64,000 nt of DNA from Cupriavidus basilensis (lineage in GTDB: Bacteria; Pseudomonadota; Gammaproteobacteria; Burkholderiales; Burkholderiaceae). The position numbers and the translations under genes were made by a program. Location of the stretch: NCBI RefSeq assembly GCF_000832305.1, contig NZ_CP010537.1, positions 3,782,001-3,846,000 of the forward strand, read 5' to 3'. Under the pieces are notes generated by a model. The model ran no database searches. It worked only from the letters and a program-made list of their open reading frames with translations, and was not told the origin of the DNA. Positions 16,654 to 43,692 of this stretch are shown piece by piece; positions within the stretch are counted from its first letter, which is position 1; every line of letters begins with the position of its first letter.

Positions 16654-17397
16654 ATGTATTTCGCTTTACGCCTCGTCGCATCTGTCGCCATTTGTCTTAG
16701 CGCCGCCGCCGCTCACGCAGAAACGGACTTTGAAAGTTGCCCTCAGTTTTTTGCACAAGGCGCCATTCCGCAGGCTCGGAGCACCGAAAATTTGAAGCCA
16801 CGCGCTCTTTGTTTTGAGGCGTTCGCGGTCTTGCATTCTGGCACGACGAAAACGCCTATCTATGTAGCTGAGCGGCTGAATTCAGCGCAAGTTGCCGCTG
16901 CCCAGAATGAGGGGCGCGCACACAAGTTCTTCGCCGATGCTCGGCTACCCCGAGCGGAACGAGCCGAACTCGATGACTACGAGGGCTCCGGCTATGACCG
17001 TGGCCACATGGCGCCGGCGGGCGATATGCCCAATGCCACGGCTATGGCGCAGAGCTTCTCCCTTGCCAACGTGGTGCCCCAGACCCCAAAGAACAATCGG
17101 AAGAGTTGGGCCGGCATTGAGAAGGCAACCCGAAAATACGTTCGGCGCGCCAAGGGGGATGTGTACGTCATCACCGGCCCGGTGTTCGGGTCCACGCCGC
17201 CCGCCGCCATCGGCCCAGACCAAGTATGGGTGCCACAATACCTCTTCAAGCTCGTGTACGACACGGCGACCCATCGAGCCTGGGTACATTGGATTGAAAA
17301 TTCAGACTCGGCGCACCCTGGACTCCCTATCTCGTACCGCGAACTCGTAAAGCGAACTGGCGTGGAGTTCCTCCCGGGCGTCGCGCTAGCTGAATGA
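16654..17397 (+). CDS. secreted DNA/RNA non-specific endonuclease
   Basis: 247 residues. A signal peptide (MYFALRLVASVAICLSAAAA, cleavage after AHA) sends it to the periplasm or outside. The beta-beta-alpha-metal nuclease core is intact: the DRGH motif at 115-118 with catalytic His, and the metal-ligand Asn in LANVVPQTPKNNRKSWAGIE near 139. Two cysteines may form a disulfide. Family members (NucA/Serratia type) cut DNA and RNA without sequence specificity. It is encoded alone, without a visible inhibitor gene, as expected for an exported enzyme. Confidence 0.93.
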   Translation: MYFALRLVASVAICLSAAAAHAETDFESCPQFFAQGAIPQARSTENLKPRALCFEAFAVLHSGTTKTPIYVAERLNSAQVAAAQNEGRAHKFFADARLPRAERAELDDYEGSGYDRGHMAPAGDMPNATAMAQSFSLANVVPQTPKNNRKSWAGIEKATRKYVRRAKGDVYVITGPVFGSTPPAAIGPDQVWVPQYLFKLVYDTATHRAWVHWIENSDSAHPGLPISYRELVKRTGVEFLPGVALAE

Positions 17398-18041: not shown

Positions 18042-19106
18042 CTAGAATTCGCTCTCACTGATTTCGTGAGTCCGCGTGTTGCCATTGAGCACCTTATACA
18101 AGGTAAGCCTCATCTTGCTGTAACGCGTGCCGTTGTACTCCTCGGTTTCCTGCAGCTCGAAGGGCTCTGACCTGGAGATTCTGCCCGTATCTAAGTTTCG
18201 GTAGCGGACATCGAAGTAGCCGGGCGCCATGTTGGCAAATTCGAAGTGGGTCCCCGCCTTGATGAAGGCGTATCGCACGGGAGTCCTATTGCTTCCGTTC
18301 AGTGAGAACACTTTCAGGAATACGTCCTCGTCGTTGCGCGAGTTATCTATCGTTAGCGACGACAGACCTCCTGTTTTCAGAGCAGGGTAGCCCGGGACGT
18401 AAGCAGTCCACGTTGGCCAGGGTTCGCCATTGGGCGCGGTGGGCTTGCGTGTGTAGCCTGGTCGAAAAGGATTAGGGCTAACAGTATTGGTCGGCGGAGG
18501 TGCTGACGCGCGCGATGGCGTTGCCACAGCTGGCTGCACTGCCGGTGGCGCGGGAATCTTCTGCTGAGGATAAGGAATCGCCGGCGTCTCGGGTCGATTC
18601 GTTGCAACAAGAGGCTCTATCGGGCCACTGCGCGGCTTGTGGTTTCCTAGCCCTACAAACAATAGGCCAAAAATGAACACCACAAAAAGAATCGGTCCGA
18701 CGGACTGGGAGAACCCGGGCTCCTTTGACGTGTTCCGACTAGCCCTCGGAGACTGACTAGCCTTCGGCGTAACCGAGGGTCGTGGCGGCACGGGTCGTGC
18801 CGTCGCGCTGGGTCGACTCGCCGAAGCTCCGGCGGCCGCCCTGGCTGCTGCCGCTCTCTGCACGTTTATCGCAGCATCTTTCGCAGCTTTCTCCTGCGCC
18901 AGTATCCAGGCGTCATGCTGGGCACGCCTGACCGGGTCCACCAGGACTTCATAGGCCGTGTTGATAATGGTCATATTCCGGTGCGATTCCGGAGAACCAT
19001 TGTTCCGGTCAGGGTGGTGCTTTTGACTCAGAGCTTTGTAGGCGGCCCGGATAACCTCAGGTGGAGCTTCACGAGAAATTTTTAGGTTATCGTAGTGGGT
19101 GTGCAT
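18042..19106 (-). CDS. membrane-anchored J-domain protein
   Basis: 354 residues. Residues 1-67 form a J domain with the HPD motif at 31-33, which stimulates the ATPase of an Hsp70 (DnaK) partner. An Ala/Pro/Ser-rich linker, one membrane segment (about 135-153, PILFVVFIFGLLFVGL), another proline-rich stretch and a C-terminal beta-rich domain of about 110 residues follow. That domain (GGLSSLTIDNSRNDEDVFLK, FIKAGTHFEFANMAPGYFDV) resembles carboxypeptidase-regulatory or invasin-like folds. The J domain would be cytoplasmic and the C-terminus periplasmic. It sits next to the membrane gene set but outside that operon. Confidence 0.85.
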   Translation of the reverse strand: MHTHYDNLKISREAPPEVIRAAYKALSQKHHPDRNNGSPESHRNMTIINTAYEVLVDPVRRAQHDAWILAQEKAAKDAAINVQRAAAARAAAGASASRPSATARPVPPRPSVTPKASQSPRASRNTSKEPGFSQSVGPILFVVFIFGLLFVGLGNHKPRSGPIEPLVATNRPETPAIPYPQQKIPAPPAVQPAVATPSRASAPPPTNTVSPNPFRPGYTRKPTAPNGEPWPTWTAYVPGYPALKTGGLSSLTIDNSRNDEDVFLKVFSLNGSNRTPVRYAFIKAGTHFEFANMAPGYFDVRYRNLDTGRISRSEPFELQETEEYNGTRYSKMRLTLYKVLNGNTRTHEISESEF

Positions 19107-19427
19107 TCTCGATATCGGCGCGAAAGTCGTCCGCTATTTTATGTCACACCAATACAGGAAAATCCCGCCTCCATAAAGGAGTACTGGCTCTTAGCGCATA
19201 GTCGTTGGGCGGCCACAACAGCACCCCACTCCAGTTGGGAGCGCCCACACCTCCCTTGTGAGAAGGAAAATGTCTCATAGAGCGTGAAACTCCGTCACCC
19301 CCTAACATAGCGACAATCATCATTACCTGAACACGTCAGTGAATTCTGCGCCCTCCGATACTTCGAGAGTGGAATCACTTGCGCGAAGGTTCTGAGGCTC
19401 GCCGCTGAACGAGGGCCGTAGTGGCAG
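19107..19427. other. spacer between the J-domain gene and the DUF429 relic
   Basis: No gene seen. It must hold the promoter of the minus-strand J-domain gene near its left edge. Confidence 0.4.
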
Positions 19428-19720
19428 GGACCCAGATATACCCGCCCTCGACATCGCCGTACGGGTAGGCCTTCCCTTCCACCAGGAATCTTGCTGTCAA
19501 TGCACACAGAGCGGCATCGACCGCCTCAATTGACTTCAACATCCTGGTGTCGATAGTTGTCTCGCCGATGCAACGTCCCTGTCGAGCACGGCGCAGGTTA
19601 TGGCATAGGGGAAAGTCTCGAAGCTTACGCGCCCCCTGGAAAAGGCTTTGCCCACAAGAAGCGGGTAACTTGATGCGAGAGCTTCGTTATGATAGGTGTT
19701 GCGCAGGGACTTTTAGCGGC
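19428..19720 (-). pseudogene. degraded DUF429 gene fragment
   Basis: The DNA matches, piece by piece and in the same orientation, the 3' two thirds of the DUF429 gene at 27492-28115. Shared stretches include CTTGCTGTCAATGCACA-like, GGCGCAGGTTATGGCAT and the AAGCGGGTA block. Frameshifts and a deletion break the reading frame. This is an older, decayed copy of the same family and marks the left side of the 19.8-26.9 kb gene set. Confidence 0.7.
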
Positions 19721-19817: not shown

Positions 19818-21314
19818 CTAGGTTCCAACCCGGTTCGATACCAAAAACCCCGCACAGATAAGATACTCAAGGACTCTCTCATCGCTCATCTCCCGACGAG
19901 AATAAAGAGCGCAAATTTCCTCGGGAGTTCGTAGTCTAGCTTTTGGTAAGAGCGTGCTTAACGCATCCCAGGACACGCTGAGGAGGTCGCTGCGCGCGTG
20001 GGCTACCGCAATCAGCTGAGCTATTTCTCTGGGTGGCCACGCCTCTTCGTCGACCCAAACCAATTGGGATGGTCTGCCGGAGGTTCCCCGTGCAGCAAGT
20101 AGCGTTTCATACGCAGCCAAGCTAGATACTGCAATTTGGAAGTAACCTTTGTGCTTGCGGATAAGCGCCCCGGAGTCAGATAAGCTCACCAGGTAATCCC
20201 AGACCGCTATCTTCTCGCTGTCAGTAAACTCAGGGGTAGTCGCAAAGCGGTAGCTCAGCCAGCCGACCGCATAGTCTTTCTTTACCCAGCCGCGCCCCTC
20301 AACCACTTGCCGCTCAATCAAACCGCCGAAGAGCGTCATCTGCCAGAGCAAGGGGTCCATTACCCCAAATGACCGAGCGCCGCGCACCCGAACCCTAAGG
20401 TTGCCAGGGAGCTCGGCTCTATCGAAGCGCCGCGCTATAATCTGCTTCTTTTCATGCTCTGGTCGGCCTCTGAAGCGGGCAGCTCTCTCCAACTCTACTC
20501 GCTGCTGATACTTCTTCTCTCGCTCAGCCTTTCGCAGTTCGCTCAATAAATGTCGCCGGGCCTCCTGCTGTTCCGCTTCCAGGGCAGCGTCTTTCTGCCG
20601 GAGCATATCTGCTTCCACACGGGCAACCTCTAGTATCGGGGACAACGTCTCCTCAAGTTTGCGCTCCGTTTCTTTCAGCTCCGGATGGAACAACCATCGC
20701 TTTAAGGAGTGCTCCGCGAACAAGACTTCGCGTAGCGATTCGAATGTCGCGGTTCGCTGTGCTGACAGGTCAATCTCAAGCAGAGGTATGCCGAGGGCAG
20801 CTACTTTATCAAGTTTGGTCGCGTCGACGAAGTGGGTGACTGCCACCTCGACCATGACCGTCCCAAGCCCCTCTGCTGTCACCAATAGGTCCGGCCGGAC
20901 ATTCTCTACCTGCTCCTCGAGACGCACGTCAGTGAGGTCGCGTTCTCCGAGCGAGACTATCTGCTGTACCGGTTCATGAAGTCGACCCAATGCGTCATAA
21001 ATCTCATACTTGGCAAAGAGCGCGGGAAACAAGAGTTTGCGCTCAGTATCAATCAGCTGCTTTGCTGCCAGATGAACAGCGCTCTCAAAACCGCTTCGGC
21101 AGTCGGTGCCAGGAGCGTGTGCAAAGTGCGGGACAACGCTGCTTTCCCAACAATGCTTGGCGTAAAGCTGTTCACGGCAGCCGGGGCAAATGCATCCGCA
21201 AGCTTTCCCCAAAGAGACGTCTCTGGGTTCATACAAGCGACCATCGGACTTGCTAAGACCGAATGGCACCCGGAGGCTTGAGCGACTCAAACCTATGGAC
21301 AAAGCGTCAGCCAT
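19818..21314 (-). CDS. CoiA-like zinc-finger/nuclease protein
   Basis: 498 residues. The N-terminus resembles competence protein CoiA: a CPGC pair (43-46), then PHFAHAPGTDC (62-72), a putative zinc site, and a helix GFESAVHLAAKQLI. A PD-(D/E)XK-like core follows (RPDLLV at 140-145, VMVEVAVTHFVD at 154-164), with the usual Lys replaced by Val in EVAV. The middle is a long charged helical stretch (220-300) and the C-terminal 200 residues are unassigned. In competence, CoiA aids recombination of incoming DNA; here it may be a nuclease effector. It is 211 nt downstream of the membrane genes on the same strand. Confidence 0.75.
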   Translation of the reverse strand: MADALSIGLSRSSLRVPFGLSKSDGRLYEPRDVSLGKACGCICPGCREQLYAKHCWESSVVPHFAHAPGTDCRSGFESAVHLAAKQLIDTERKLLFPALFAKYEIYDALGRLHEPVQQIVSLGERDLTDVRLEEQVENVRPDLLVTAEGLGTVMVEVAVTHFVDATKLDKVAALGIPLLEIDLSAQRTATFESLREVLFAEHSLKRWLFHPELKETERKLEETLSPILEVARVEADMLRQKDAALEAEQQEARRHLLSELRKAEREKKYQQRVELERAARFRGRPEHEKKQIIARRFDRAELPGNLRVRVRGARSFGVMDPLLWQMTLFGGLIERQVVEGRGWVKKDYAVGWLSYRFATTPEFTDSEKIAVWDYLVSLSDSGALIRKHKGYFQIAVSSLAAYETLLAARGTSGRPSQLVWVDEEAWPPREIAQLIAVAHARSDLLSVSWDALSTLLPKARLRTPEEICALYSRREMSDERVLEYLICAGFLVSNRVGT

Positions 21315-21525
21315 GTGAAACGCGCAGAGAGTTTATGGGGTAGCCCACCCGCTAGTCGGTGCCTCCATCGCTTCGGGCCGCTTCGGCGCTGCGCTGCTGG
21401 CATCGGGTCAGAACTTGGCACAGGACAAGCGGTACAGTCGACCTCGAATCGCGCTGTGAGAGGGGACGTCGACCGCCTTGGCTTAGCACCGAACCAAGTG
21501 TCCAGGGAAGGTTGAGGGCGCTCCA

Positions 21526-22740
21526 CTATCGGCGTGCCTCGACTTTGTAGAAGTAGTTCTCGACCATGAGGCGAGCTCGGTCGGACTGTACGGCGTCGGA
21601 AATCGAGCTCTTCAATTGAACGTAGTGACGGCACTCGGGGTCCTGGGCCTTGCTCCAGTTGTAGACACCTTGAATCTTGCTCGCGAACGCTTGATAAGAA
21701 TATGGTCCGGCCAACGCACCATCGATGCCTGGGAGTGCTCGCGCAACACCCTCCCGACGCGGCGGCCAGGCTGGTGTGACAACCACAGACTCTGGGCGAA
21801 CTTCGACGGAGAACAGAAACTCCACCTTACCGCTCTCATCGGCCCAACATGGTGGGAAGTCCCGACCGCCACGGGCGTCGAGCCGATTCTTCAGAAATGC
21901 AACCTGTCCGCGTAGGTCAGAGTTCTCCTTCTTGATGGCTTCAGGGCTTCGGCCTCCCGTCGCCAAGTCACCGAAACCCTTTGCCGCTGCAACCACCTCC
22001 TGGACTGTCTGGGCTTCCTGCCCGGGCTTGAGGTCTCGGTCCAGCTTGTCCTTGAGTTGCATGCGAAGCTCAGCAGTGGTTGCGATGGCCTGTCGGACCA
22101 TATCGATGGCTCGCTTGTCACGGCTGGCTTTCCCTGTTGCAGTCTTGCCTTCCGTTGCAGAGGCTGCTTGCGCCAGGGACTCGACGCCTGCAGACGAGGC
22201 GGCGCTTGTGGGGTTAGCAGGTGCGGATGCCTTCGCATCACGCTTGCTAGCAGCCGTACTTGCTAGCTTTGCTGCTACTGCGTTGGCTTGCTCTACAGCC
22301 TTACGCACCTGCTCCTGTAGCGCAAGGGCCGACATGACCTCCTCGCGTGTGACGTCTGGCCTGCTCGCCATGGCTGCCTGTTCAAGCTGCTCCTTCAGCT
22401 CGGTAAGGGCAGTCAGCTTGGCGTCGAGGTCTTCAACCTGCTGCTTCAGCCTGTCACGCTCAGCACGAATCTGGTCGGCCGCGATTAGCTTGGTGATGAC
22501 TTCGTCAGGATTCGGAGTGCCTGCACCTTGGAGTGCGGTTGCAAGCGAAGACTTTGCGGCATCGAGCGCCGCCTTGGCTTGCTGCGTCGTCTGTACTTTC
22601 GCCAGCTCGGCCTCGGCGGCTAGCCTATCGTTCTGCTCCTTGAAAACCAGGTACCCAAGCAGGAGCAGCAGCAGAAACGTTAGGGTAAACGCAATCTCCG
22701 TCAGCGATAGCTGGAAGACTTGGTCATTTCGTTGTGCCAC
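21526..22740 (-). CDS. MotB/ExbD-like single-pass protein with coiled coil
   Basis: 404 residues. A short N-terminus precedes one membrane helix (13-33, LTEIAFTLTFLLLLLLGYLV) carrying an acidic residue, E15, at its start, as the proton-binding Asp does in MotB/ExbD/ZorB proteins. A coiled coil of about 220 residues follows, ending in a compact C-terminal domain (CWADESGKVEFLFSVEVRPE to VENYFYKVEARR). That domain is not an OmpA peptidoglycan-binding domain. It would be the ion-channel partner of the preceding gene product. The start is 9 nt after the stop of that gene. Resemblance to MotB is by layout, not by clear sequence identity. Confidence 0.7.
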   Translation of the reverse strand: MAQRNDQVFQLSLTEIAFTLTFLLLLLLGYLVFKEQNDRLAAEAELAKVQTTQQAKAALDAAKSSLATALQGAGTPNPDEVITKLIAADQIRAERDRLKQQVEDLDAKLTALTELKEQLEQAAMASRPDVTREEVMSALALQEQVRKAVEQANAVAAKLASTAASKRDAKASAPANPTSAASSAGVESLAQAASATEGKTATGKASRDKRAIDMVRQAIATTAELRMQLKDKLDRDLKPGQEAQTVQEVVAAAKGFGDLATGGRSPEAIKKENSDLRGQVAFLKNRLDARGGRDFPPCWADESGKVEFLFSVEVRPESVVVTPAWPPRREGVARALPGIDGALAGPYSYQAFASKIQGVYNWSKAQDPECRHYVQLKSSISDAVQSDRARLMVENYFYKVEARR

Positions 22741-22749
22741 ACGAAGTCC

Positions 22750-24609
22750 TCAAGTTCCTGATGCTTTGGGCGGAAAGGACTGGGTAGAGGCACTGATTGC
22801 CCCTTCCGCACCGAAATCTGGTCCGTTCGGTCGCACCGAACCGACTGCACTGGGGGCACTAGCTGCTAAATAGGCGCTCGCACCGTTAACCGGGACTTGC
22901 GGTTGTGCAATTGCCTGGCCCGCCGACGCAGAATACGGAACCGCAGGAGACGGAAGACTCAAAGCCGAGAGCAGAGCAGGCGTATGCTGGAACGGGCTAC
23001 CCACCGTGGAGGGCGCTGGAGTTTCAACCGCGACCTTCACCTCCTGAATTCGAGACACAACGTCACGCAACTCAGAGCTCTGAGCTCGCAACGCCGTGTC
23101 CAGGGAAGTGAGCTGTCGAACCATTGATTGCAGCTGCTCGACGGCCTGGTCAACTCTGCCTACAGCCGTTGTGGCGTGCTGACCCAGAGTGCTGAGAGTC
23201 TGAACCGCCTTCAAATCGGCAACAGCTACGCTTTCCAGCTTTCCAACTACGGACTGTGACGCTTCAGCTGCGGCCACCAAGTTGGTGGAAGCGGTTTCGG
23301 CTGCTATGGTATTCGATGCCAACTTACTTGAGATAGTTTCTGCAGCAGCTCTCGTTGCGGTCGCGTTCGCCTCAATCTTCGCGGCTACGGATTGGGTGGC
23401 CTGAGCTTGAGTATGCAACTTCTCGATGACCCCAGACAGCCCTGACTCAACGGCGCGTCGTGTCTCTGCGCCGTCGGAAATCACACCAGCGACTCGGGCA
23501 GACAGTTCATTCGTGGCATTGTTGCTCGCGGCAACCCCAGCCAGCGTGCTAGCCAACGTTTCGTCGAACTTGATGAGGGTCGCGCCAAGTTGCTCCAACG
23601 CCGTGAGCTGCCCCTGAGCGGTGTCAAGCACTGCCTGCTGTTGCTGGGTCAGCTTGAGTACGGTCTCAAGCGAGCCCTCGGTTGCACCGGCTTTGTCTTT
23701 CAGTTTTTTCAATGCGGCCGACAGCACGACAGTGGATTCGTTGACCTCGTGAAAGGAGGCCTTGATACCACCAGCAAGCGCCGTCGAGCTTGCCTTCAGC
23801 TGAGCCAGCGGGTCGCTCAAATGCTGGGCGAAGTAGTCGTCCGGGAAGGTTGTTGTCTTGAGCCTATCCGTGACAGCATCGGTGAACGCCCCGACCTTGG
23901 CCTCGATGCTCGCTAGATTCGCTCTCATGCCTTGGGAGTAGCCATCAACCGAGTCAGACAGGCGCTGACTAGCCGCTTTGACCCCTCCAAGAGCCTGCAT
24001 GAACGCGTTTTGGTTCCTTGTTGTCAGGTCAGCAAAGAATGCGGTGAGCTTTTCGGCGTGGTTCTTGGACAGGTTCTCGACCTGCATGTTAACGCGCTCG
24101 ACGCTTGCCTTGGCGGCTGTGTCGACCTGAGACTCGAAATCGCGAAGACGCTCCAACGCGATGGTCAGCTGCTCGGTGAATTTGCGGGTGGCGTCAAGGA
24201 CCGCATCCTCCGCGTCCTTGATTGCGTCAGCTACGTCCTTCTTGAAGCTGACTAAGTACACGCGGACACCGAGGCCGAGAACTGTGCTGACCATGGCCGC
24301 GCCGAATCGAACGGCAATGTCCTGAATCCTCGTGCCGATATTCGGGAGGTCGAACAGGCTGAAGATGATAGACGTGATGGTGAAGATGAACCCGAGGTAG
24401 TAGCACGTGTCAGCGAACTTCTCGTCCGTTAAGTCGTTCTCGCGCCTGAAGTAACCAAGCGCGATGTAAGCGCCCATGATAAGCAGTGGAACCGTGAAGC
24501 CCAAAATCCATGGGTCTCGCAGCTTCCACCCCAGGAAAGAAGACCCGACCTTGAGAATGAGCGTGACAAGGAACAGCTTCTGGACACGGATATCGAAGAT
24601 GCTCTTCAT
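22750..24609 (-). CDS. MotA/ExbB-like membrane protein with long coiled-coil tail
   Basis: 619 residues. Four membrane helices fill the first 121 residues (about 9-27, 34-54, 68-86, 101-121). The last, RFGAAMVSTVLGLGVRVYLV, recalls the Thr/Gly-rich pore helix of MotA/TolQ/ExbB (al.tT..Gl.v). About 420 residues of continuous alpha-helical coiled coil rich in Ala, Thr and Glu follow, then a disordered Pro/Ser tail. A channel module with a long cytoplasmic helical tail is the layout of ZorA in Zorya anti-phage systems. Sequence-level relationship to ZorA is inference only. It lies in a tight operon between the vWA-like gene and the MotB-like gene. Confidence 0.7.
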   Translation of the reverse strand: MKSIFDIRVQKLFLVTLILKVGSSFLGWKLRDPWILGFTVPLLIMGAYIALGYFRRENDLTDEKFADTCYYLGFIFTITSIIFSLFDLPNIGTRIQDIAVRFGAAMVSTVLGLGVRVYLVSFKKDVADAIKDAEDAVLDATRKFTEQLTIALERLRDFESQVDTAAKASVERVNMQVENLSKNHAEKLTAFFADLTTRNQNAFMQALGGVKAASQRLSDSVDGYSQGMRANLASIEAKVGAFTDAVTDRLKTTTFPDDYFAQHLSDPLAQLKASSTALAGGIKASFHEVNESTVVLSAALKKLKDKAGATEGSLETVLKLTQQQQAVLDTAQGQLTALEQLGATLIKFDETLASTLAGVAASNNATNELSARVAGVISDGAETRRAVESGLSGVIEKLHTQAQATQSVAAKIEANATATRAAAETISSKLASNTIAAETASTNLVAAAEASQSVVGKLESVAVADLKAVQTLSTLGQHATTAVGRVDQAVEQLQSMVRQLTSLDTALRAQSSELRDVVSRIQEVKVAVETPAPSTVGSPFQHTPALLSALSLPSPAVPYSASAGQAIAQPQVPVNGASAYLAASAPSAVGSVRPNGPDFGAEGAISASTQSFPPKASGT

Positions 24610-24611
24610 AG

Positions 24612-25418
24612 TTAGCCCTCCAGCGGTCGGACGGCCACGATGCGAGCACCTGCCTTGGCGAAGTAGTCCTCCCAGAACTTCAGGTTTCTCTTGGTCTGAA
24701 GTTGCGGGCTGTTCATGAGGTAGTGCAACTCAACCTCCACATCGCTGAGTTCGAGTTGTGCCTTCTTGCCGTAGTCAGACGCGGCGAATGCAGCGTAGTC
24801 GACAGGTCCCTTGTACATGGTGAACTGCGGCGTGTTGTGCAGCATGTCGGACATGATGATGAGCCGACGCTCGCCCTTCACGTCATACTTGTGATAGGCA
24901 TTGATGCCCACCAACTGAAGCATTTCAAATATTGGTGACCACTTTGCGGGCTGAGTTGACACAAGCGACTCGGACTGCTTGAGCACTGGTTCGATGAACT
25001 TCAACCGATACTGAGCCTTGAGCCTCTTCTGGTTAGCCGTGAGTTCGCTCTTGCCCGAACCGTCACCGGGATTACACAACTCCACCAGCGGCGCGGCAGT
25101 TTCCTTGAAGTCCTCGCTAAGGACAAACACTGACAGGAGGTAGCCCTCCGGAATCCGTTTCTCCACCAGCTCTTGGAGGATGACGGAGAAGGCCTGCTTC
25201 TGGGTGAAATTGAGCGGGTCGGTCTTGTCGACCAGCAAGACATAGTGACCGACAGGTCCGTCGGCAGGGCACATCGTCTCGGGATTCAGGCCCTTCGGAC
25301 GACTCATCATATAGTAGCCGACACCGACCAAGCCAGCTACGACCGCTATTAGGAAAAGCGTTCCAAGGACAAGTTCCTGCGTGCGGCGTTGTCGTGCACG
25401 CCTTCCTAGCTGCGCCAT
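24612..25418 (-). CDS. membrane-anchored vWA-like protein
   Basis: 268 residues. One N-terminal membrane helix (16-38, LVLGTLFLIAVVAGLVGVGY) is followed by a domain that reads like a von Willebrand factor A fold: a first strand with a degenerate metal site (YVLLVDKTDPLN at 59-70 in place of DxSxS), a charged helix (TQKQAFSVILQELVEKRIPE), a second strand (LLSVFVLSED), and later RRLIIMSDMLHN. vWA domains mediate metal-dependent protein contacts. The start overlaps the upstream stop (TAATG) and the next gene begins 2 nt after the stop, so the genes are translated together. Confidence 0.7.
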   Translation of the reverse strand: MAQLGRRARQRRTQELVLGTLFLIAVVAGLVGVGYYMMSRPKGLNPETMCPADGPVGHYVLLVDKTDPLNFTQKQAFSVILQELVEKRIPEGYLLSVFVLSEDFKETAAPLVELCNPGDGSGKSELTANQKRLKAQYRLKFIEPVLKQSESLVSTQPAKWSPIFEMLQLVGINAYHKYDVKGERRLIIMSDMLHNTPQFTMYKGPVDYAAFAASDYGKKAQLELSDVEVELHYLMNSPQLQTKRNLKFWEDYFAKAGARIVAVRPLEG

Positions 25419-26857
25419 TACGCAATCTCCTTGGCCGGGAAGTGGGTACCAAGCGGCTTGAGCCGGTCGAAGTGTTGAGTGAAGGCAGCCTGGATGCGGG
25501 CTCGGATTTCCTGCACTTCTGCCAGAAGGGCGTTGACCAACACCCGCTGTTCTCGCAGCCCAGCTTCGTCAGCGGCTGTGCTGAAGTCTGGTGTCCGAAT
25601 CGGCCTCAGGTCGGGCTGCCTGTCGAAGTACACGGGTCGCTGCAGCCCCTTGCGATGGAGCTCGTTCTCGGTTCGGAACTTTCGAAGAAGTGCGTCCAGT
25701 GAGTTATCCGCATCGCGGAGGGCTGTTGACAGTCTCGAGCCCGTCATCAGCTTGTCTTTGATGAGCGACTCAAAAACCGCAACATCTGCTTGGGCGCGTT
25801 CAAGCGTCTTGTCAAGCGCCTTCAATTCTTCGTTCTTCAACTCTTCGAGGTCGATGCGCAACGTATTGAGTTCGTCTTCATGGTCCTCCACGGCAGTCTG
25901 AGTGCGGCGCGAGATGGACCCGTAGCCAGGGTAGAGGTCCTCGCTGAAGAGCCCGTCAAACAACGAGGCGATGCCAAAAACCATGCTGATGGCAAACAGC
26001 GCCCACGAGAAGAAGTCCCGAAGGTGGAGAGGATGTTCAATGAACGCGTCGAGGGCGGCCTTCGCCGGATTGGCAACCTCTGCCGTGAGGCTGTCGCGGT
26101 AGTGCGCGATACCCATCCCGACGCAAGCCATAACAAAGAATGAGAAAGCAAGAGCAGCCAGCCCCAAGGTCTTGAGAGCTGCGCTCCTGTGATTCACGTA
26201 ACGAATCGCGAACTTGCCTAGCAAGAACGCGACGGCGACATTGATTGCCGCCATGATGGCGGCCTCGGCAAAACCCCCGAGGAGCCCTGAGTCCAACCCT
26301 TGTGCGAAGAATCTAGCGTTGAGGACACCCTCTACTCCGACGAGCAGGAAAAGGACTGCGTATAGGAGGTAAGTCCGGGTCCCAGATGGGAAGTGAGCCT
26401 CACGAGTCAGTCCATGCTCAGTGCGAAACGCGTCAAGTTCTGCTTTGCGCTTCCTGGCGGTCTCGCCCAACGTCCGGAGGATACTGTCTTGTTCAGTCAG
26501 AAGCGTGCTCGCCTTACGCTCAAACTCTTTGTCGGCTTGGCGCGCCCGATTTACGTCCTGAGTGATGTTGCGACGGCCCAAGTCTTGACTGAGAACATTG
26601 AGCCGCAGCGCTGCCCAGTCAACGTAGTCTTGCCGCGCCTTCTCCACGCGCTGCACTACGGCGGCCTCCGGTCCTGAGATGAGCGTTGCGTCGCAAGCGG
26701 GCAGCCCCGCCTCGCCAAGGCGCTTAGCTTCGTCGACAAGGCGAAGCTCCTTGGCAAGCTTGTCTACCTCCAGGGGGTAGAGGTCTGGGTGACCCTTTCG
26801 GGGTTTACCCGACCCTGACGATGTGAGCCAGTCCCATAGCCGCTCCAGCAGACCCAT
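25418..26857 (-). CDS. four-pass membrane protein with flanking coiled coils
   Basis: 479 residues, first gene of the minus-strand operon. A soluble helical N-terminus (1-155, charged coiled coil) precedes four membrane helices (about 161-181, 192-218, 229-250, 282-303), a second coiled coil (325-375) and a helical C-terminus. Helix 2 contains small residues (GGFAEAAIMAAINVAVAFLL), suggesting close packing. No family is recognised. The order within the operon suggests it is an integral part of the same membrane complex. The stop overlaps the next start by one base. Confidence 0.65.
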   Translation of the reverse strand: MGLLERLWDWLTSSGSGKPRKGHPDLYPLEVDKLAKELRLVDEAKRLGEAGLPACDATLISGPEAAVVQRVEKARQDYVDWAALRLNVLSQDLGRRNITQDVNRARQADKEFERKASTLLTEQDSILRTLGETARKRKAELDAFRTEHGLTREAHFPSGTRTYLLYAVLFLLVGVEGVLNARFFAQGLDSGLLGGFAEAAIMAAINVAVAFLLGKFAIRYVNHRSAALKTLGLAALAFSFFVMACVGMGIAHYRDSLTAEVANPAKAALDAFIEHPLHLRDFFSWALFAISMVFGIASLFDGLFSEDLYPGYGSISRRTQTAVEDHEDELNTLRIDLEELKNEELKALDKTLERAQADVAVFESLIKDKLMTGSRLSTALRDADNSLDALLRKFRTENELHRKGLQRPVYFDRQPDLRPIRTPDFSTAADEAGLREQRVLVNALLAEVQEIRARIQAAFTQHFDRLKPLGTHFPAKEIA

Positions 26858-27491: not shown

Positions 27492-28115
27492 TCAACAAGT
27501 AAAGATGAGGCCTGGGCGCGGAACGCGAATGTATCCGCCTTCAGCATCGCCGTAAGCGTGCGTCCGTCCTGCTAGCAGATATCTTGCTGTCAACGCACAA
27601 AGAGCCGCATCCACGGCGTCAATCGATTTCAATGCGTTGGTGGCAATCCGCGCTTTTTCAAGCAGTTGTCGGCGTTGAGAACGCTTTTCCTTTGCAGAGG
27701 CGACATCCCTACCAAGCATGGCGCAGGTTATGGCATGGGGAAATGTCTCAAAGCTGACCCTTCCCTTGGCATAGTCCTTGTCGCTAAGGAGCGGGTAGGT
27801 TGGAGCGAACGCGTGGTAGACCCGCTCCCCATTGAACATCCAGCCATAAAACCCGCTGGCGTTGGACTTGGCTCTATCTCGTGGAGGGGTCGAGAAGGAA
27901 AAGATTCGCTCCTGTGCGAGCTCTCTTTCGGCGCGACGGCCAAATCCCTCGATTCCCCACCGACAAGGCGAGTCAATCCCGATAGCAATGGCATCAAACT
28001 CAATGCACTTTTGGACTAAGCCCTCCGGCGCTCTGCTGTTGATGCTGCATAGGATGTCGTTGCCTCGCAAAATGACAAGGTGGCATCCTTTCCTGTTCCC
28101 TCCAATCAATGTCAA
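27492..28115 (-). CDS. DUF429 family protein with an N-terminal frameshift
   Basis: About 207 residues of a DUF429 protein, an RNase H-fold family of predicted nucleases. Typical pieces are AIAIGIDSPCRWG, the region around FYGWMFNGERVYHAF, FETFPHAITCAMLG, and the near-terminal SIDAVDAALCALTARYLLAG. The present frame starts at a TTG. An ATG at 28143 opens another frame that reads MTVLSTVAGID, the expected first strand with its catalytic Asp; it leaves the main frame near 28107, before GGNRKGCHLVIL. A small indel has probably detached the first catalytic strand, so the gene may be inactive. A more decayed copy is at 19428-19720. Confidence 0.7.
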   Translation of the reverse strand: MTLIGGNRKGCHLVILRGNDILCSINSRAPEGLVQKCIEFDAIAIGIDSPCRWGIEGFGRRAERELAQERIFSFSTPPRDRAKSNASGFYGWMFNGERVYHAFAPTYPLLSDKDYAKGRVSFETFPHAITCAMLGRDVASAKEKRSQRRQLLEKARIATNALKSIDAVDAALCALTARYLLAGRTHAYGDAEGGYIRVPRPGLIFTC

Positions 28116-28636: not shown

Positions 28637-31180
28637 ATGCAGCCACGTTTGACCGAATTGCTCAAAGCAGTGCAGCCAGAGCGAGTCCTGTTCACAACCT
28701 TTACCCTGAGCCTGAACTGGTTTGAGTCATTCTGCCTACCCGTTCTTAAAATGGAAGGTTGTGACCAAATCGACCTGTTCGTGGATTCCCGCGAAGCCTG
28801 CAAGTTGGGCAACGAAACATCCAGTGCTTATGCTGGCAATGCCTACCGCGTAGTCCCCATATACAACAAAGGCGGCTTCTTTCACCCCAAAATTGCATAT
28901 CTGCAAGGGGAAGAGACTGACACGCTCGTTGTCGGCAGTGGGAACCTGACCTTCCCCGGCCAAGGTGGAAATCTGGAGGTGATTGACGCGGTCAGCGCCC
29001 GCCAGCACCCTTACGTTTTTGAGGAATTCGCCTCCTTCGCCGAAGCTCTTGCCCAGCGTCCGGACTTGGCTAGCGAGACTGTTTCTGTGCTGCAGCACTA
29101 TGCGCAACGGGCACGCCATGTTGCATCCCTTGCTCCAGCGGAAGGTCGAACATCGCCGAGAACAGCCTGGCTGGTCCACACATTGGCCACATCGGCGCAG
29201 GACCAACTCGAGAAACTCGTTAAATCAGAGCTTGGCGCTGTTCGCCGGCTCACGGTCCTCTCCCCGTTCCATACGCGCTCTGGGAAAGCCATCGCGTCCA
29301 TTGCCAACATGTGTCGAGCCGAGGCCGTGCGAATTGGCCTTCAGGTAGAGCGCGGCACCAGTCGGCTATTGGCTCCCTTTGACATAGCCGCACCGTGTCT
29401 GCCAGAGAATCTGACGTACGTCACACCGGACACCTCCCACGCTGCCAGGCATGTCCACGCTAAGTGCTTTGAGCTCGAAGGTCCCTCGGAATATCTGGTG
29501 ATGACAGGGTCGGTCAATGCAACCTGGCAAAGTCTGTGTGACACTCGCAATGTAGAAGTGGCGTTAGTGCGGAAACTAGCCACATCACCTTTCGCATGGA
29601 TAGCGGGCGAACCCGCCGAGTTCGTTCCTTGCGAGTATGAGGTGGACCCATCGAGCGCTTTGGCATCTTCCTTGCAGGTGTCATTGCGCGACGATATGCT
29701 GGATGGAGCACTATCACCTAACGCAGATGTGCGAGTGGCACGACTAGAGGTTTGGTCAAAAAGCAAGAAAGAACTCACCCTAGAAGGGGTTGAGCTCGAT
29801 GCGGAGGGTCGGTTCAGCGTCGCCGTAACACTCAACTGCGCCACAGACCGTGCCTTGCGACTGAAGCTAATCGCCGACAACGTTCGAGCTGTGGGCTGGC
29901 TTAACGTGGAGAGCGAACTCGTCATTCCACCTGGTGACAAAGTGCTGGGTCGCATCGCAGCCAAGGTGGTCGCAGGCACGGCAACACCGGCCGACCTCCG
30001 AAAAGTGTACGAGCGATTCCGACGTATCCTTCGGCGTGAAAAGGAGCGGGCACAGTCCGCCGCTCAAGTTTATCGAACTACCTCGACGCGTCCCTTGACC
30101 GCGCCAACTTCTCCTGGGCCTCGCTCCTACGACAGGTGGTCCCACGGTGACCGGGGTGACTTAGGTCAATCCCCCGAGACGGCACAGCAAGCGCTGGCTG
30201 CAGCCTTTGTTAGCTTACGCGAAGCCCGCGGAGCCCCCAGTCGGACTTCAGCCCGACAATCGTCAGCCGGGCAGGCAAAAACATCCACGCAAAACACCCC
30301 GACCGCGGCCCCCCCCAACGATAACCCTCCCAGTAAGGGGCCAAAGAATAAAGAGGCCAAAAATCCGATGGCGGAGATGTTGAAGACATTGCCCGTCGTG
30401 CTGGCCATTGACGCGTCAGGACTATGGATGCCTGCCTTGATTGCACTTTCCGCCGGCGACCTGTTGGCTCGAATAACCGCCGATAAAGCTCTTACGCTGG
30501 AAGAGGCTGCGACCTACATCCGGCGGTGGTTATCCGATTACAGCCACTTCAGCTATAGCGCCGAGAGCCGCAGTCGGCTCATGCAACTGTTTTGCGGAAT
30601 GGCCGCGACTGCCGCCTACTTTAGTGGAGCGTCCGCCGACCTCTCGCGATTGATACAGGATGTTGAGGTGCTGGCGCAGCGCAAGGTGAATGCTGATGAA
30701 TGGCTTGACCTCGTTGACCAGGCGCTGCAAACAGATGCCTTTGACACACTCCAGGCTGACATTTGCACCCAAGTGCTGGAGAAGTCCCTTGAATTGGGGG
30801 TTACCCAGGCCCGCGGTCGAGAACTGGAAACAGTGATTGCTTCAGTGTGCAGCACTGAACCCTGCTTGGATGAGCCCTTGAAGCGATACGAGAACATTCG
30901 GAAACACCTTACGCAGATACATAAGAGCCAACTGCGTACAGGAAAGACCCGCCGGCTCTTTGGAGTCATCGGTCCCGACGTCAGCCCCATTAACGAGGAA
31001 ACCGGGTGCCCTGCCTGTAACCATAAGCTGGGTTCTGTTGACGTCGTTGCAATCATTGCACGGGACGGCGTAGCACTACATGCTCCGGGGTGCAATAAAC
31101 CTGTTTTTTCTGGACCCACCAAAGAGAGTTTGACGGCAGCACACGTGCCGACCTCCCTGTATGGCTATCTGACGGCCTGA
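28637..31180 (+). CDS. phospholipase-D-fold protein, probable nuclease
   Basis: 847 residues. Two HKD-like motifs of the PLD superfamily are visible: HPKIAYLQGEE followed by LVVGSGNLTFPGQGG near residues 82-110, and HAKCFELEGPS followed by LVMTGSVNATWQSL near 272-300. Each supplies a His-x-Lys and a GS-N pair as in PLD-type nucleases. A Pro/Ser/Thr-rich linker (about 470-575) joins a helical C-terminal part with a CPAC pair and a further Cys (APGC) near the end, perhaps a zinc site. Family members cut DNA or phosphodiesters; DISARM DrmC is one defence example. It is first of a two-gene unit, 14 nt before the next gene. Confidence 0.78.
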   Translation: MQPRLTELLKAVQPERVLFTTFTLSLNWFESFCLPVLKMEGCDQIDLFVDSREACKLGNETSSAYAGNAYRVVPIYNKGGFFHPKIAYLQGEETDTLVVGSGNLTFPGQGGNLEVIDAVSARQHPYVFEEFASFAEALAQRPDLASETVSVLQHYAQRARHVASLAPAEGRTSPRTAWLVHTLATSAQDQLEKLVKSELGAVRRLTVLSPFHTRSGKAIASIANMCRAEAVRIGLQVERGTSRLLAPFDIAAPCLPENLTYVTPDTSHAARHVHAKCFELEGPSEYLVMTGSVNATWQSLCDTRNVEVALVRKLATSPFAWIAGEPAEFVPCEYEVDPSSALASSLQVSLRDDMLDGALSPNADVRVARLEVWSKSKKELTLEGVELDAEGRFSVAVTLNCATDRALRLKLIADNVRAVGWLNVESELVIPPGDKVLGRIAAKVVAGTATPADLRKVYERFRRILRREKERAQSAAQVYRTTSTRPLTAPTSPGPRSYDRWSHGDRGDLGQSPETAQQALAAAFVSLREARGAPSRTSARQSSAGQAKTSTQNTPTAAPPNDNPPSKGPKNKEAKNPMAEMLKTLPVVLAIDASGLWMPALIALSAGDLLARITADKALTLEEAATYIRRWLSDYSHFSYSAESRSRLMQLFCGMAATAAYFSGASADLSRLIQDVEVLAQRKVNADEWLDLVDQALQTDAFDTLQADICTQVLEKSLELGVTQARGRELETVIASVCSTEPCLDEPLKRYENIRKHLTQIHKSQLRTGKTRRLFGVIGPDVSPINEETGCPACNHKLGSVDVVAIIARDGVALHAPGCNKPVFSGPTKESLTAAHVPTSLYGYLTA

Positions 31181-39623: not shown

Positions 39624-42600
39624 TCACGGAAAAGATTTTGACCGAGTTGACCGCAAATTGATAAGGGCACGGGTGTACGCTTCGTTGAATCGCTCGTAGT
39701 CAGCGGTGCCGCCAGTGAGCCCTGAAAGCATCGCGTCACGAGAGCGGCTTGCGGCCTCCGACTTTTGAGCTACATGGTCTATGCCCGCGCAGCAGTGGGC
39801 CATCGTTTCAATGGCCTCCCTCTCACGCTGTTCGTCCATCCGGTCGCCATGCTCAAATTCGGTGACTGCGTTGTATACAGCCCAGAAACGGCGTGCCATG
39901 TCTTGAGTGATTTTCTTCGATTGACGAGCGGCCGTGGCGACAAGTAACGCAAGCCGCTGGATGGGCGTAGTCTCGCCAGCATCTACGCGAAGCCTCGCCT
40001 TTCCGAGCCACAGGCCGACGATTGCGGATATCGCCGTTAGGTTGTTCTCCTTCTCGGCGATAAGGTCCGCCAACAGAGCAGACGCATGGGCCGCGATGTC
40101 GATATAGGGTTTTCTGACATTCCAGATACCCTCGAAAATCGCTGTACAGGTATCACTGCCCCGGATTGCGTCAATAGCGCTGCTGGCACTTTTTGCCTCT
40201 CCTGCATTGGTGGGAAGGCTCGCAAGCAGGTAGCGAGGTGTGATAGCAATTCCAACGTTCCATGAGCACAAAAGCCCAAGTTTCTCGCTCACCTGTTGCG
40301 GTGTCATTAACCCCATCTCGTCAGCGATTGCCAGCAGGTCAAGCGTACAGAGCCCTCGAGCAGCCGTTTCCTCCGATTCCGTTGCATAGATACGCAATAG
40401 CGCATCGTCCGAGTAAATCCAATACCTGCCCAACTGAGCAAGGCTGCGCGTATCCTCAGTGAGCAACCTTCCTATCGGACCAGATTCCTCCGCCGGCGTA
40501 TGGTTCACCGGCTGCTGAATTTTCTCGAATCGGCGCTTGAGTTCCTCAATCAGCTTCGTGTAGCGTTGTCGGACAAACGACCCTGTTATCGGCGAAGCGC
40601 TCTGTTGAATCTCCAGCAGAGTCGCCTGGCTAATCGCGATAACAGGAAAAATCTCAAATAGCACGTCAAACAGCTCTAAGTCTTGCAGGACAAAGAGCGC
40701 GGTAAGGTCGAGGAGCGGTACCGCCGTTGCGACATCGTGACGAGCACGCGGAGTCCATGTACCCGCAATCATTGACAGGTGGTACTGCAGCGCATCCTTC
40801 TTTGACTTCTTTCCAATCTCCCAGAGTTCCCCGATGTCGCGAACGTTCACCAGGATGGCCCGTGGCCGCCAGGCGTAGGGGATTGGTAGGTCACCGCGAC
40901 CAAGTTCCCTTTCTGTTTTTGTCTGCCAAGCGCGCCGCTCCTCGTAGTTACCCAGCACCTCCTTAAGCATGCGCTCGATGTCATGGAAAGTGGGATTCTC
41001 CGGCAGCGTGCCGTGACGCAATATGCGGGACTCAGGCCAGCGGTCCGTAAAGGCCGTCATACGCCGCTGGAATTCGGCAGCCCTCTCTGGTGAAAATGGG
41101 ACATCGCCACGTATCGTCGCCGTTAGGAATGTTCCGAGAAACTGCCCCTCGGCAACTTCGTCATTTTGGTCGACATTCCGCCCCATTTCCCACGCAACCT
41201 CTATTGCTCGCTGGCTCCCAGGCTCTTTCGTATGAAGCAGCGTGAACAGCAGCCGCAGACAATCGACGCGTCGTGCTCTATCGACCTCTTGGTCAAGAAG
41301 TCGCTCCGCAAGTTCTAGGGCCTCATCTATAAAACCACACCGCGTCACGATGTTGACATACGTGTCGACCGCTAGTCGGTCAGAGACATTGCTATCGAGA
41401 AGCTTACGGACCTCGGTAAGGGCCTCGGCAGTCCGACCAAGTTTGTCGAGTGCGAACGCCTTGATGGCAGAGAAGCGACCGATATGTGCGAATCTTTCGA
41501 TTGCCCGATTAGCAACAAACAGCAAGTCGTCCCACTTGGCAAGCGTCGCGTACGCTTGCGCTAGCACGAACTCTCCTTCAATCGAAAGCTGCTGGAGCTC
41601 ACGAATCCGTGCCGAGATGTCTATACAGAATTCTGCTTCGTTGTGCTTAGTCGCGTCGAGTAAGTGAAACAGCTGGAAGGCGATGGCCTTGGGCTTCCCT
41701 TGTTCTTCATAGTCGACCATCAACCGCTTCAGGGCCTCATCTTTGGCCAACACGTTACGTGCAGTCGCACGGAAATAGCCAAGAATTGCTACATGGCTCG
41801 CCCACTGTGGCTTGCTTCGCAACCGAGTGGCCAGAGCTTCAGCTCGGTCTGCAAGGAAGAGAGTATCGCCAGACAGGACGCCAAGTGCCAAAGACACTGG
41901 ATACAGGTCATGGTCCTGGGGCAGCGAGTCACATGCGCCTTCAACTTCTTCCAAGCACGGGCGGTATCTCTTCGTCTGATGCAGTATGCCGATTCGCTTG
42001 AAAATGCGCTCTGCCGAATCTGGTCGGCGCTGATTCGCCAGAAGAGCTGCGTCGTAATCTTCGAGATGAATTGCCAGCATCTCGAGCGCCCACTGCATTG
42101 TGGGTAACGTTGGACGAGCCTCAGCCGCCTCTTTAGCCGCATCAATAGTCTCCTCCGCCCTCCCCAACATAAGAGCGGCAGCTGCCCATATGTCCGCGAG
42201 AAACTCCAGGTTGCCCGACCAGCCAGCCCGACGTAGCAAGTCGATAGCTGTTTGTACATCATTCCACACTGCCTGCAATCGTGTGACGTCGAGGTCAGCG
42301 GGTCCGGTCATCGACGCGATAAAAATTTCACCGACAACCTCGCGCGTTGAAGGCATTGACAGCCTGAAGTTAGCGCGGGCTCGCAGAATATGAAACAGCT
42401 GCTGGCTATGCAAATCAAGCTGCTTCTGGGCGATGCCTTCATCGCAAACGCGTACGACCTCCTCGTGCTTGCCCTCTAAGCCGGCAACGATAGCGCGGGT
42501 ATTAAGCGCATCCCTGCGAGGGAGCGTGTCCAGCAGTTCGGCGGCTCCGTCGAAGTCTCCTTCAATCGCCATTAGGCGAGCGAGAGTCGCCTTGACGTCT

Positions 42601-43613: not shown

Positions 43614-43692
43614 GGGCTTTAGGTAATCGGTGGAGATTGCAGGGGACTGGTGTAGAGCGCAGAACTTATTCGGGTAGGTTCGTCGCGTCGCC

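Follow-up and report, generated by a model that had tools for sequence, protein, structure and literature searches.

Four contiguous genes of Cupriavidus basilensis, here called A, B, C and D, form a conserved unit in which a putative MotAB-type pair is encoded together with two further membrane proteins and, in many genomes, with a nuclease of the exported type. We propose, at a probability of roughly 0.57, that the set specifies an ion-driven envelope complex that would position or switch on a nuclease in the periplasm to attack phage or plasmid DNA on its way in.

A conserved four-gene operon

The genes lie within a 64,000-nucleotide stretch of DNA (the window; Table 1), where the five minus-strand open reading frames described in an earlier note were recovered at the same positions: A to D practically touch, with a 1-nt overlap between A and B and gaps of 2 nt between B and C and 9 nt between C and D, and the CoiA-like gene follows after 211 nt. 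Since both the A-B-C-D order and the single-strand orientation are constant in 33/33 ABCD loci, examined within a sample of 139 fetched loci, we consider the four genes to be a real unit, beyond chance. Gene A heads the set in all 33, its copy in L084 being cut by the contig end, and separate tblastn queries with A and B each returned 24 plasmid records with identical genus counts.

Table 1. Genes of the ABCD set and its surroundings in the Cupriavidus basilensis window
Feature	Position	Strand	Description
Gene A	26857-25418	minus	479 aa ORF
Gene B	25418-24612	minus	268 aa ORF
Gene C	24609-22750	minus	619 aa ORF
Gene D	22740-21526	minus	404 aa ORF, GTG start
CoiA-like gene	21314-19818	minus	498 aa ORF
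Endonuclease_NS gene, likely effector (candidate)	16654-17397	plus	247 aa, PF01223
DnaJ-domain membrane protein gene	18042-19106	minus	PF00226

The earlier note had described a five-gene set and had pointed to co-occurrence of all five as a check; the conservation of A, B, C and D bears out the greater part of that description, but the CoiA-like gene is not a member. Its CoiA_N match (22.2 bits) falls under the 26.3 cut-off, and tblastn against all 139 fetched loci, a search that a very divergent relative could escape, found it in the window's own genome only. The neighboring DnaJ-domain membrane protein (PF00226, 62.5 bits) was likewise rejected as a member, with no match in fetched loci outside the window's own genome. 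The gene set itself was not found described in a literature search whose scope fell short of most subscription journals and bioRxiv, in agreement, within the same limits, with the earlier statement that no described system has this gene list.

The distribution of ABCD is rare and patchy. Two further loci, L136 and L137, carry divergent C-like proteins, and 16 distant loci that were at first counted as the same system proved to be without C and D by the profiles used; among the distant loci, L090 yielded B alone and the A-B locus L042 has a stop inside B. Gene B gave no match to phage records, and pattern scans found no relatives of gene A in viral contigs. VirD4/TraG coupling ATPases adjoin three distant A-B pairs (L042, L052 and L066), which, together with plasmid carriage, is what one would expect of a conjugation-related function, whether it keeps out DNA arriving by conjugation or forms part of the machinery by which a mobile element transfers itself; several ABCD loci, however, reside on contigs longer than 4 Mb, and we regard this explanation as distinctly unlikely.

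A putative ion-channel pair with two companion proteins

The protein encoded by gene D carries, by hydropathy, one transmembrane segment with Glu15 at the helix start, and a single N-terminal helix with this glutamate is found in 33/33 D proteins, an aspartate taking its place in the divergent set L136. From these sequence features D is identified as a MotB/ExbD/ZorB-like subunit, and its alignments with three ZorB proteins are weak (hhalign P=0.02 and 0.21). The earlier description of a MotB-like protein lacking OmpA applies to the window's D, which has no Pfam OmpA match and carries a C-terminal 'PPCW' domain in OmpA's place, but not to the family overall: the OmpA-like HTD motif is present in 19/32 D proteins from the related loci and the window, and a further 4/32 match the Pfam OmpA profile, of which three score above the cut-off and one below it.

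Gene C encodes three transmembrane segments at the KD cut-off and a weaker first helix, followed by a long coiled coil; an AlphaFold2 (AF2) model of residues 1-201 has four helices, the last of which continues into the coiled coil. The protein aligns with MotA/ExbB/TolQ at TM3/TM4, where YLGFIFT pairs with YIGLFGT and the AxxxTxxGL pattern recurs, at an hhalign P of 5.7e-4 and a probability of only 29%. Pfam scans gave no match to PF01618 or otherwise to the MotA/ExbB/TolQ family, Foldseek matches were not significant, and unrelated helical proteins score equally high in VIA-align. We see moderate support for a MotA/ExbB/TolQ-like membrane core in C, and to that extent the previously suggested ion-driven MotAB/ZorAB-type pair can be assigned to C and D.

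For gene B, the predicted structure (AF2, mean pLDDT 93) has vWA and integrin I domains as leading PDB matches in Foldseek (probability 1.00, best E-value 4.3e-6), at a TM-score by query of about 0.4. Combined with one transmembrane segment by hydropathy, the model thus identifies B as a vWA fold behind a single membrane anchor, in keeping with the vWA-like protein noted earlier, and we infer that this domain faces the periplasm. The MIDAS is partly degenerate (D64-x-T66-D67 ... D191): across 8 rows the intact DxSxS motif is absent, the first Asp and the Thr/Ser being kept and the fifth position never being Ser. Two cysteines, C50 and C115, are invariant over 39 rows. When profiles of B and C were searched against the sequences of PDB chains, coiled-coil or chance-level matches alone were returned.

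The four-pass coiled-coil protein of the earlier description corresponds to A, conserved with B, C and D, which has four transmembrane segments by hydropathy and, at both its N- and C-terminus, a long extramembrane segment. It has at least 248 homologues, and no match over the cut-off in Pfam or NCBIfam and none in PADLOC.

A nuclease, apparently exported, accompanies many of the sets

That a nuclease accompanies the membrane proteins, as had been suggested, holds for 18/33 ABCD loci. A separate SNase is present in 12. In three, D is instead fused at its C-terminal end to an SNase, and in one it is fused to a GmrSD-type HNH domain; the remaining two, the window included, have Endonuclease_NS. 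The natural D-nuclease fusions span 488-670 aa: by Pfam, single D proteins of L048 and L084 combine OmpA and SNase, both over the cut-off, that of L081 has SNase over and OmpA under it, and that of L047 joins OmpA to GmrSD_C. Among the matches listed for D (120 of 1302), six homologues have an SNase domain, and one of these six nearly duplicates the query. In 10/25 genomes (7/20 genera) PF00565 is fused to ABCD or lies no more than 5 kb from it, against 0.16 genomes expected, an SNase enrichment of about 60-fold, and profiles for SNase or EndNS match in 0/16 of the distant loci without C and D.

On a tree of A, B and C, nuclease presence, type or place changed at least 15 times, and at least two changes involving nuclease-D fusion are forced by well-supported branches. 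Nuclease labels are clustered on the tree overall (15 changes against a shuffled mean of 17.3, a value as low being reached in 4/200 shuffles), whereas presence or absence alone is not (10 changes against a shuffled mean of 10.8).

In the window, the Endonuclease_NS protein (164.8 bits) has a DRGH motif and a hydrophobic, signal-type N-terminus by hydropathy, and is encoded 4 kb from ABCD on the opposite strand. It shares 77% identity with the nuclease immediately preceding A in Cupriavidus amp6 and 66% with the other copy in its own genome, and is likely the effector candidate of this set. The associated nuclease thus appears to be of the exported type throughout (SNase, GmrSD-type HNH or Endonuclease_NS), either separate or on the C-terminal end of D, which is presumably periplasmic. 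Exported nucleases may also have other purposes.

Because the associated nucleases are of the exported type, the set more likely has its output in the periplasm than signals to a nuclease in the cytoplasm. The earlier note had deemed an ion-powered sensor that signals to a nuclease plausible. Read as a Zorya-like sensor acting on the CoiA-like protein in the cytoplasm, whose gene does adjoin ABCD in the window, this version is in our view very improbable, that gene being in no fetched locus beyond the window's own genome.

No recognised nuclease was found in 14/33 ABCD loci, two of which end at contig ends, and one further locus retains a remnant alone. These loci without a recognised nuclease, together with the many D proteins carrying an OmpA-like domain and a neighbor census without clear defence excess (see below), would fit a Tol-Pal-like role in envelope maintenance with the nuclease as an occasional passenger. 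The repeated changes in nuclease-D fusion, the SNase enrichment and the rare and patchy occurrence of ABCD argue against such a role, which we rate as quite unlikely.

Genomic neighborhood

The three closest relatives of the window's set have known defence genes nearby: in L001 these are type IV restriction and ThiF/E2/JAB genes, in L002 type III restriction-modification and PD-T4-4, and in L003 LmuA and LmuB. In a PADLOC census, 51 families were counted beside ABCD (125 proteins of 156 eligible, from 19 loci) versus 52 in control stretches (125 proteins of 133 sampled and 264 eligible, from 18 stretches, nearly all of them in the same genomes), and by that count, made overall without assigning family members to single loci, there is therefore no excess of defence families. 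Among the 25 families listed for each side, the ABCD neighbors include TerY and STK_OB, type III CRISPR genes, AbiEii and type II methyltransferases, and the controls are mostly HerA, helicase and other ATPase models.

The neighborhood also bears on a DNA uptake or scavenging machine, in which the motor would move or open the envelope and the exported nuclease would process DNA for nutrition or transformation. Exported-type, non-specific nucleases adjoining a motor, the CoiA-like gene next to the set in the window and, in L006, a gene with the annotation ComEC at a distance of about 6 kb would all suit such a machine, but CoiA is not conserved with ABCD, and the patchy distribution with plasmid carriage and the defence genes around L001, L002 and L003 speak against it; on balance it seems unlikely.

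Proposed mechanism

In the defence model that we prefer, A, B, C and D would assemble in the inner membrane as one complex, in which a probable C pentamer and a probable D dimer would form an ion channel or motor of the MotAB-ExbBD-ZorAB superfamily with Glu15 of D as the putative ion carrier. A would act as a four-pass companion, the vWA domain of B would hang in the periplasm, and the periplasmic part of D, OmpA-like in many relatives and another domain here, would hold or sense the cell wall. The trigger would most likely be a breach of the envelope, for instance when a phage injects its DNA or a plasmid enters, whereupon ion flow would position or activate the output nuclease. This nuclease, whether a periplasmic protein of its own or the domain at the C-terminus of D, would then cut DNA on its passage through the periplasm, where the cell's own chromosome is absent.

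More tentatively, and at somewhat less than even odds, the set may represent a new class of immunity that combines a rotary ion motor acting at the outer face of the inner membrane, sensing of wall breach, an interchangeable periplasmic nuclease that the motor would drive or release to destroy DNA in transit, and discrimination of self from foreign DNA by compartment, with A-B as a shared envelope module; the last element is proposed because the three distant A-B pairs adjoin conjugative DNA-pump ATPases. If correct, a MotAB-type motor would be coupled to an enzyme that cuts DNA beyond the cytoplasm, self and non-self would be told apart by place rather than by sequence, and the ion-driven defence idea of Zorya would extend to the periplasm. 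It would also give a role to families that lack any named domain, those of A, B and D of the window, and the motor-nuclease fusions would make effects of ion flow simple to test.

Relation to known systems

SNIPE is a single DUF4041 protein whose membrane-bound, cytoplasmic GIY-YIG nuclease cuts phage DNA during injection (PMC13190303). It shares with our model the idea of DNA cleavage at the entry site and differs from ABCD, a multi-protein set with an exported-type nuclease; A-D have no Pfam match to DUF4041 or GIY-YIG. FtsZl1/vWA/OmpA membrane systems (PMC2875224) resemble ABCD in jointly encoding vWA and OmpA-type proteins, whereas no FtsZ-like protein, GTPase or kinase is found among A-D. 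With ExbBD, TolQR and MotAB the set shares the TM3/TM4 pattern of C, the acid-bearing helix of D and the OmpA-like domain of many D proteins, yet it has no TonB, TolA or flagellar partner among A-D, and adds A, B and a nuclease partner.

Likeness to Zorya extends to a putative ion-driven pair of the MotAB type, one subunit of which has a long coiled-coil tail, an acid in the B/D helix, a nuclease output and a mobile or defence-type setting. ABCD differs in adding a vWA protein and a four-pass protein, and in its nuclease, which either is of the exported type or forms a fusion with the MotB-like subunit. With the PADLOC models for ZorA, the match is confined to the coiled coil of C, leaving its MotA-type core unrecognised, and no PADLOC Zor effector (ZorC, ZorD or ZorE) was found among the 19 distinct window proteins scanned. 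Classification of ABCD as Zorya was rejected, the set having neither a ZorA-model core match nor zorC with zorD, or zorE. A Zorya-like locus distinct from ABCD lies about 48 kb off in the window's genome.

Gene set and genomic setting

The open reading frames that the earlier note had drawn in the window were all confirmed by ORF calling, and four of them, encoding a 479-residue four-pass protein (A), a 268-residue vWA-fold protein (B), a 619-residue MotA/ExbB/TolQ-like protein (C) and a 404-residue MotB/ExbD/ZorB-like protein (D), overlap or touch on one strand, with a CoiA-like gene starting 211 nt past D. The set sits within an island-like stretch of an 8.4-Mb, two-contig genome, as GC content is 54-59% over window bases 1-49,000 versus 64-70% past ~50,000. 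Two DUF429 copies, one upstream of A and the other beyond the CoiA gene, lie in direct orientation ~8.1 kb apart with 71-73% DNA identity, so that the CoiA gene and DCBA are bracketed by diverged direct copies.

Table. Coordinates of the features discussed
Feature	Record	Position	Strand	Matches
A	window	26857-25418	minus	no Pfam over cut-off; no PADLOC
B	window	25418-24612	minus	no Pfam over cut-off; no PADLOC
C	window	24609-22750	minus	no Pfam over cut-off; PADLOC ZorA models, coiled coil only
D	window	22740-21526	minus	no Pfam over cut-off; PADLOC, weak JetC only
Endonuclease_NS gene	window	16654-17397	opposite to A-D	
DUF429 gene	window	27492-28115		PDC-S44-like
Decayed DUF429 copy	window	19427-19687		
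PLD-domain gene, then 585-aa gene	window	28637-31180		ZacB/PDC-M27B-like (PLD-domain gene)
Two adjacent giant genes	window	39624-47949		DUF4365 + PIN-TPR-GreABC (one gene); weak NACHT/HEAT (the other)
SNase C-terminal remnant	L085	7684-7920		
Divergent A-B pair with C-like protein	L136	8115-12822		
Zorya-like locus	L139 (G000:C2)	~3725.2-3733.5 kb		ZorA (PADLOC)

Conservation of the A-B-C-D order

The order A-B-C-D on a single strand is kept in all 33 examined loci with all four genes, namely the window, three genome contigs (L001-L003), four of 24 plasmid records (L004-L007) and 25 loci from genomes (L040, L041, L043-L049, L054-L062, L081-L086 and L135); these include two near-copy pairs (L043/L044 and L082/L083), a locus whose contig end truncates A (L084) and one where the C frame extends across D (L055). 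The A-D proteins of L001 are 79-90% identical to those of the window. One genome sample includes at least 22 members of the window's genus, two of which have the set. Among 72,556 plasmid records searched by tblastn, A and B each match 24, with identical genus counts among the matches listed (20 of 24 for each). Profile relatives of B, partly distant loci without C and D, occur in 4/399, 11/398, 20/297, 11/289 and 6/200 genomes of five samples, each holding at least one known carrier.

Recurrent association with nucleases

A nuclease is recognized in 18 of the 33 loci and none in 14, two of which stop at contig ends; L085 retains a remnant only, a broken nuclease gene just upstream of A. In L048, L081 and L084 an SNase forms the C-terminal domain of D, after its OmpA-like domain; L047 has a GmrSD_C domain at that position instead. 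Among the 120 listed of 1302 D homologues, six likewise carry SNase, including a near copy of the query. We regard these fusions as the strongest single argument, because they fix the partner and, given the layout of D, the side too.

Separate SNase genes lie within ~1.2 kb of ABCD in 12 loci (L003, L004, L006, L007, L043, L044, L045, L046, L049, L059, L060 and L062). Four of these supplied the SNase profile; Pfam backs the assignment at L003, L007, L045, L046 and L062, PF00565 is also found at L043, L044, L049, L059 and L060, and for L004, L006 and L007 the annotation reads "thermonuclease family". Eight of the 12 ORFs as called carry a hydrophobic stretch near the N-terminus, the start being uncertain in the remaining four. 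L001 carries an Endonuclease_NS ORF that stops 225 nt ahead of A, and its counterpart in the window is 77% identical to it and 66% identical to a second copy in the window's genome.

Across 25 genomes (~132 Mb) with 58 PF00565 sites, a site lies within 5 kb of ABCD or is fused to it in 10 genomes (7 of 20 genera), versus 0.16 expected. Furthermore, nuclease state (presence, type, place and orientation) changes at least 15 times, by what may be gains or losses, on a 32-row A+B+C tree built by a quick method and containing two long branches; three changes concern SNase fusion, two of them forced by well-supported branches.

Neither the SNase nor the Endonuclease_NS profile, the two nuclease profiles applied there, matched any of the 16 distant loci without C and D. 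At L042, L052 and L066 a VirD4/TraG-type coupling ATPase directly follows a distant A-B pair, hinting that A-B serves as a module for various engines. The A-B pairs of L136 and L137 are divergent and accompanied by a C-like protein, again with no SNase or Endonuclease_NS profile match, and the D-like protein of L136 has a helix Asp where others have Glu.

Proposed mechanism and comparison with known systems

We propose, with a probability of roughly 0.57, that ABCD is an ion-driven envelope complex that places or activates a periplasmic nuclease against incoming phage or plasmid DNA. C and D would form the ion-driven unit, and the nuclease would work in the periplasm, the side that D and B are predicted to face; as a periplasmic enzyme would encounter DNA only during envelope crossing, incoming phage or plasmid DNA is its likely target. 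What sets off the complex, how it uses ion flow and what A and B contribute is inferred; wall damage, the trigger put forward for Zorya (PMC11890865), might play that part here.

The engine of ABCD is of a known kind. We know of no described system with the ABCD-plus-exported-nuclease arrangement. A motor joined to a vWA partner and an exported nuclease did not turn up in a literature search of partial coverage, nor is one described in the passages compared on Zorya, SNIPE, MotAB/ExbBD/TolQR, FtsZl1 and vWA-MoxR (PMC11890865, PMC13190303, PMC12505986, PMC2875224, PMC7159879, PMC12419801).

Defence neighbourhood

Neighbours of ABCD in L001 include a type IV restriction-like gene as well as ThiF/E2/JAB genes; L002 carries a type III restriction-modification system 188 nt from D and a PD-T4-4 gene, and L003 has LmuA and LmuB beyond its SNase. 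Within the window itself are a ZacB-like gene, a DUF4365/PIN gene and a third gene that matches NACHT and HEAT weakly. Around 19 other ABCD loci, PADLOC families show no excess (51 versus 52 in controls). The defence setting is thus firm for the closest relatives only, which slightly lowers our confidence in the periplasmic-nuclease reading.

The 585-residue protein following the window's PLD-domain gene has no Pfam, NCBIfam or PADLOC match, and the two giant genes are possibly an NTPase-nuclease defence pair. In the same genome, ~48 kb left of the window, lies a Zorya-like locus (L139) with a PADLOC-recognized ZorA and neighbours that we take, from position and size, to be ZorB, C and D; it is apparently a complete Zorya I-like locus.
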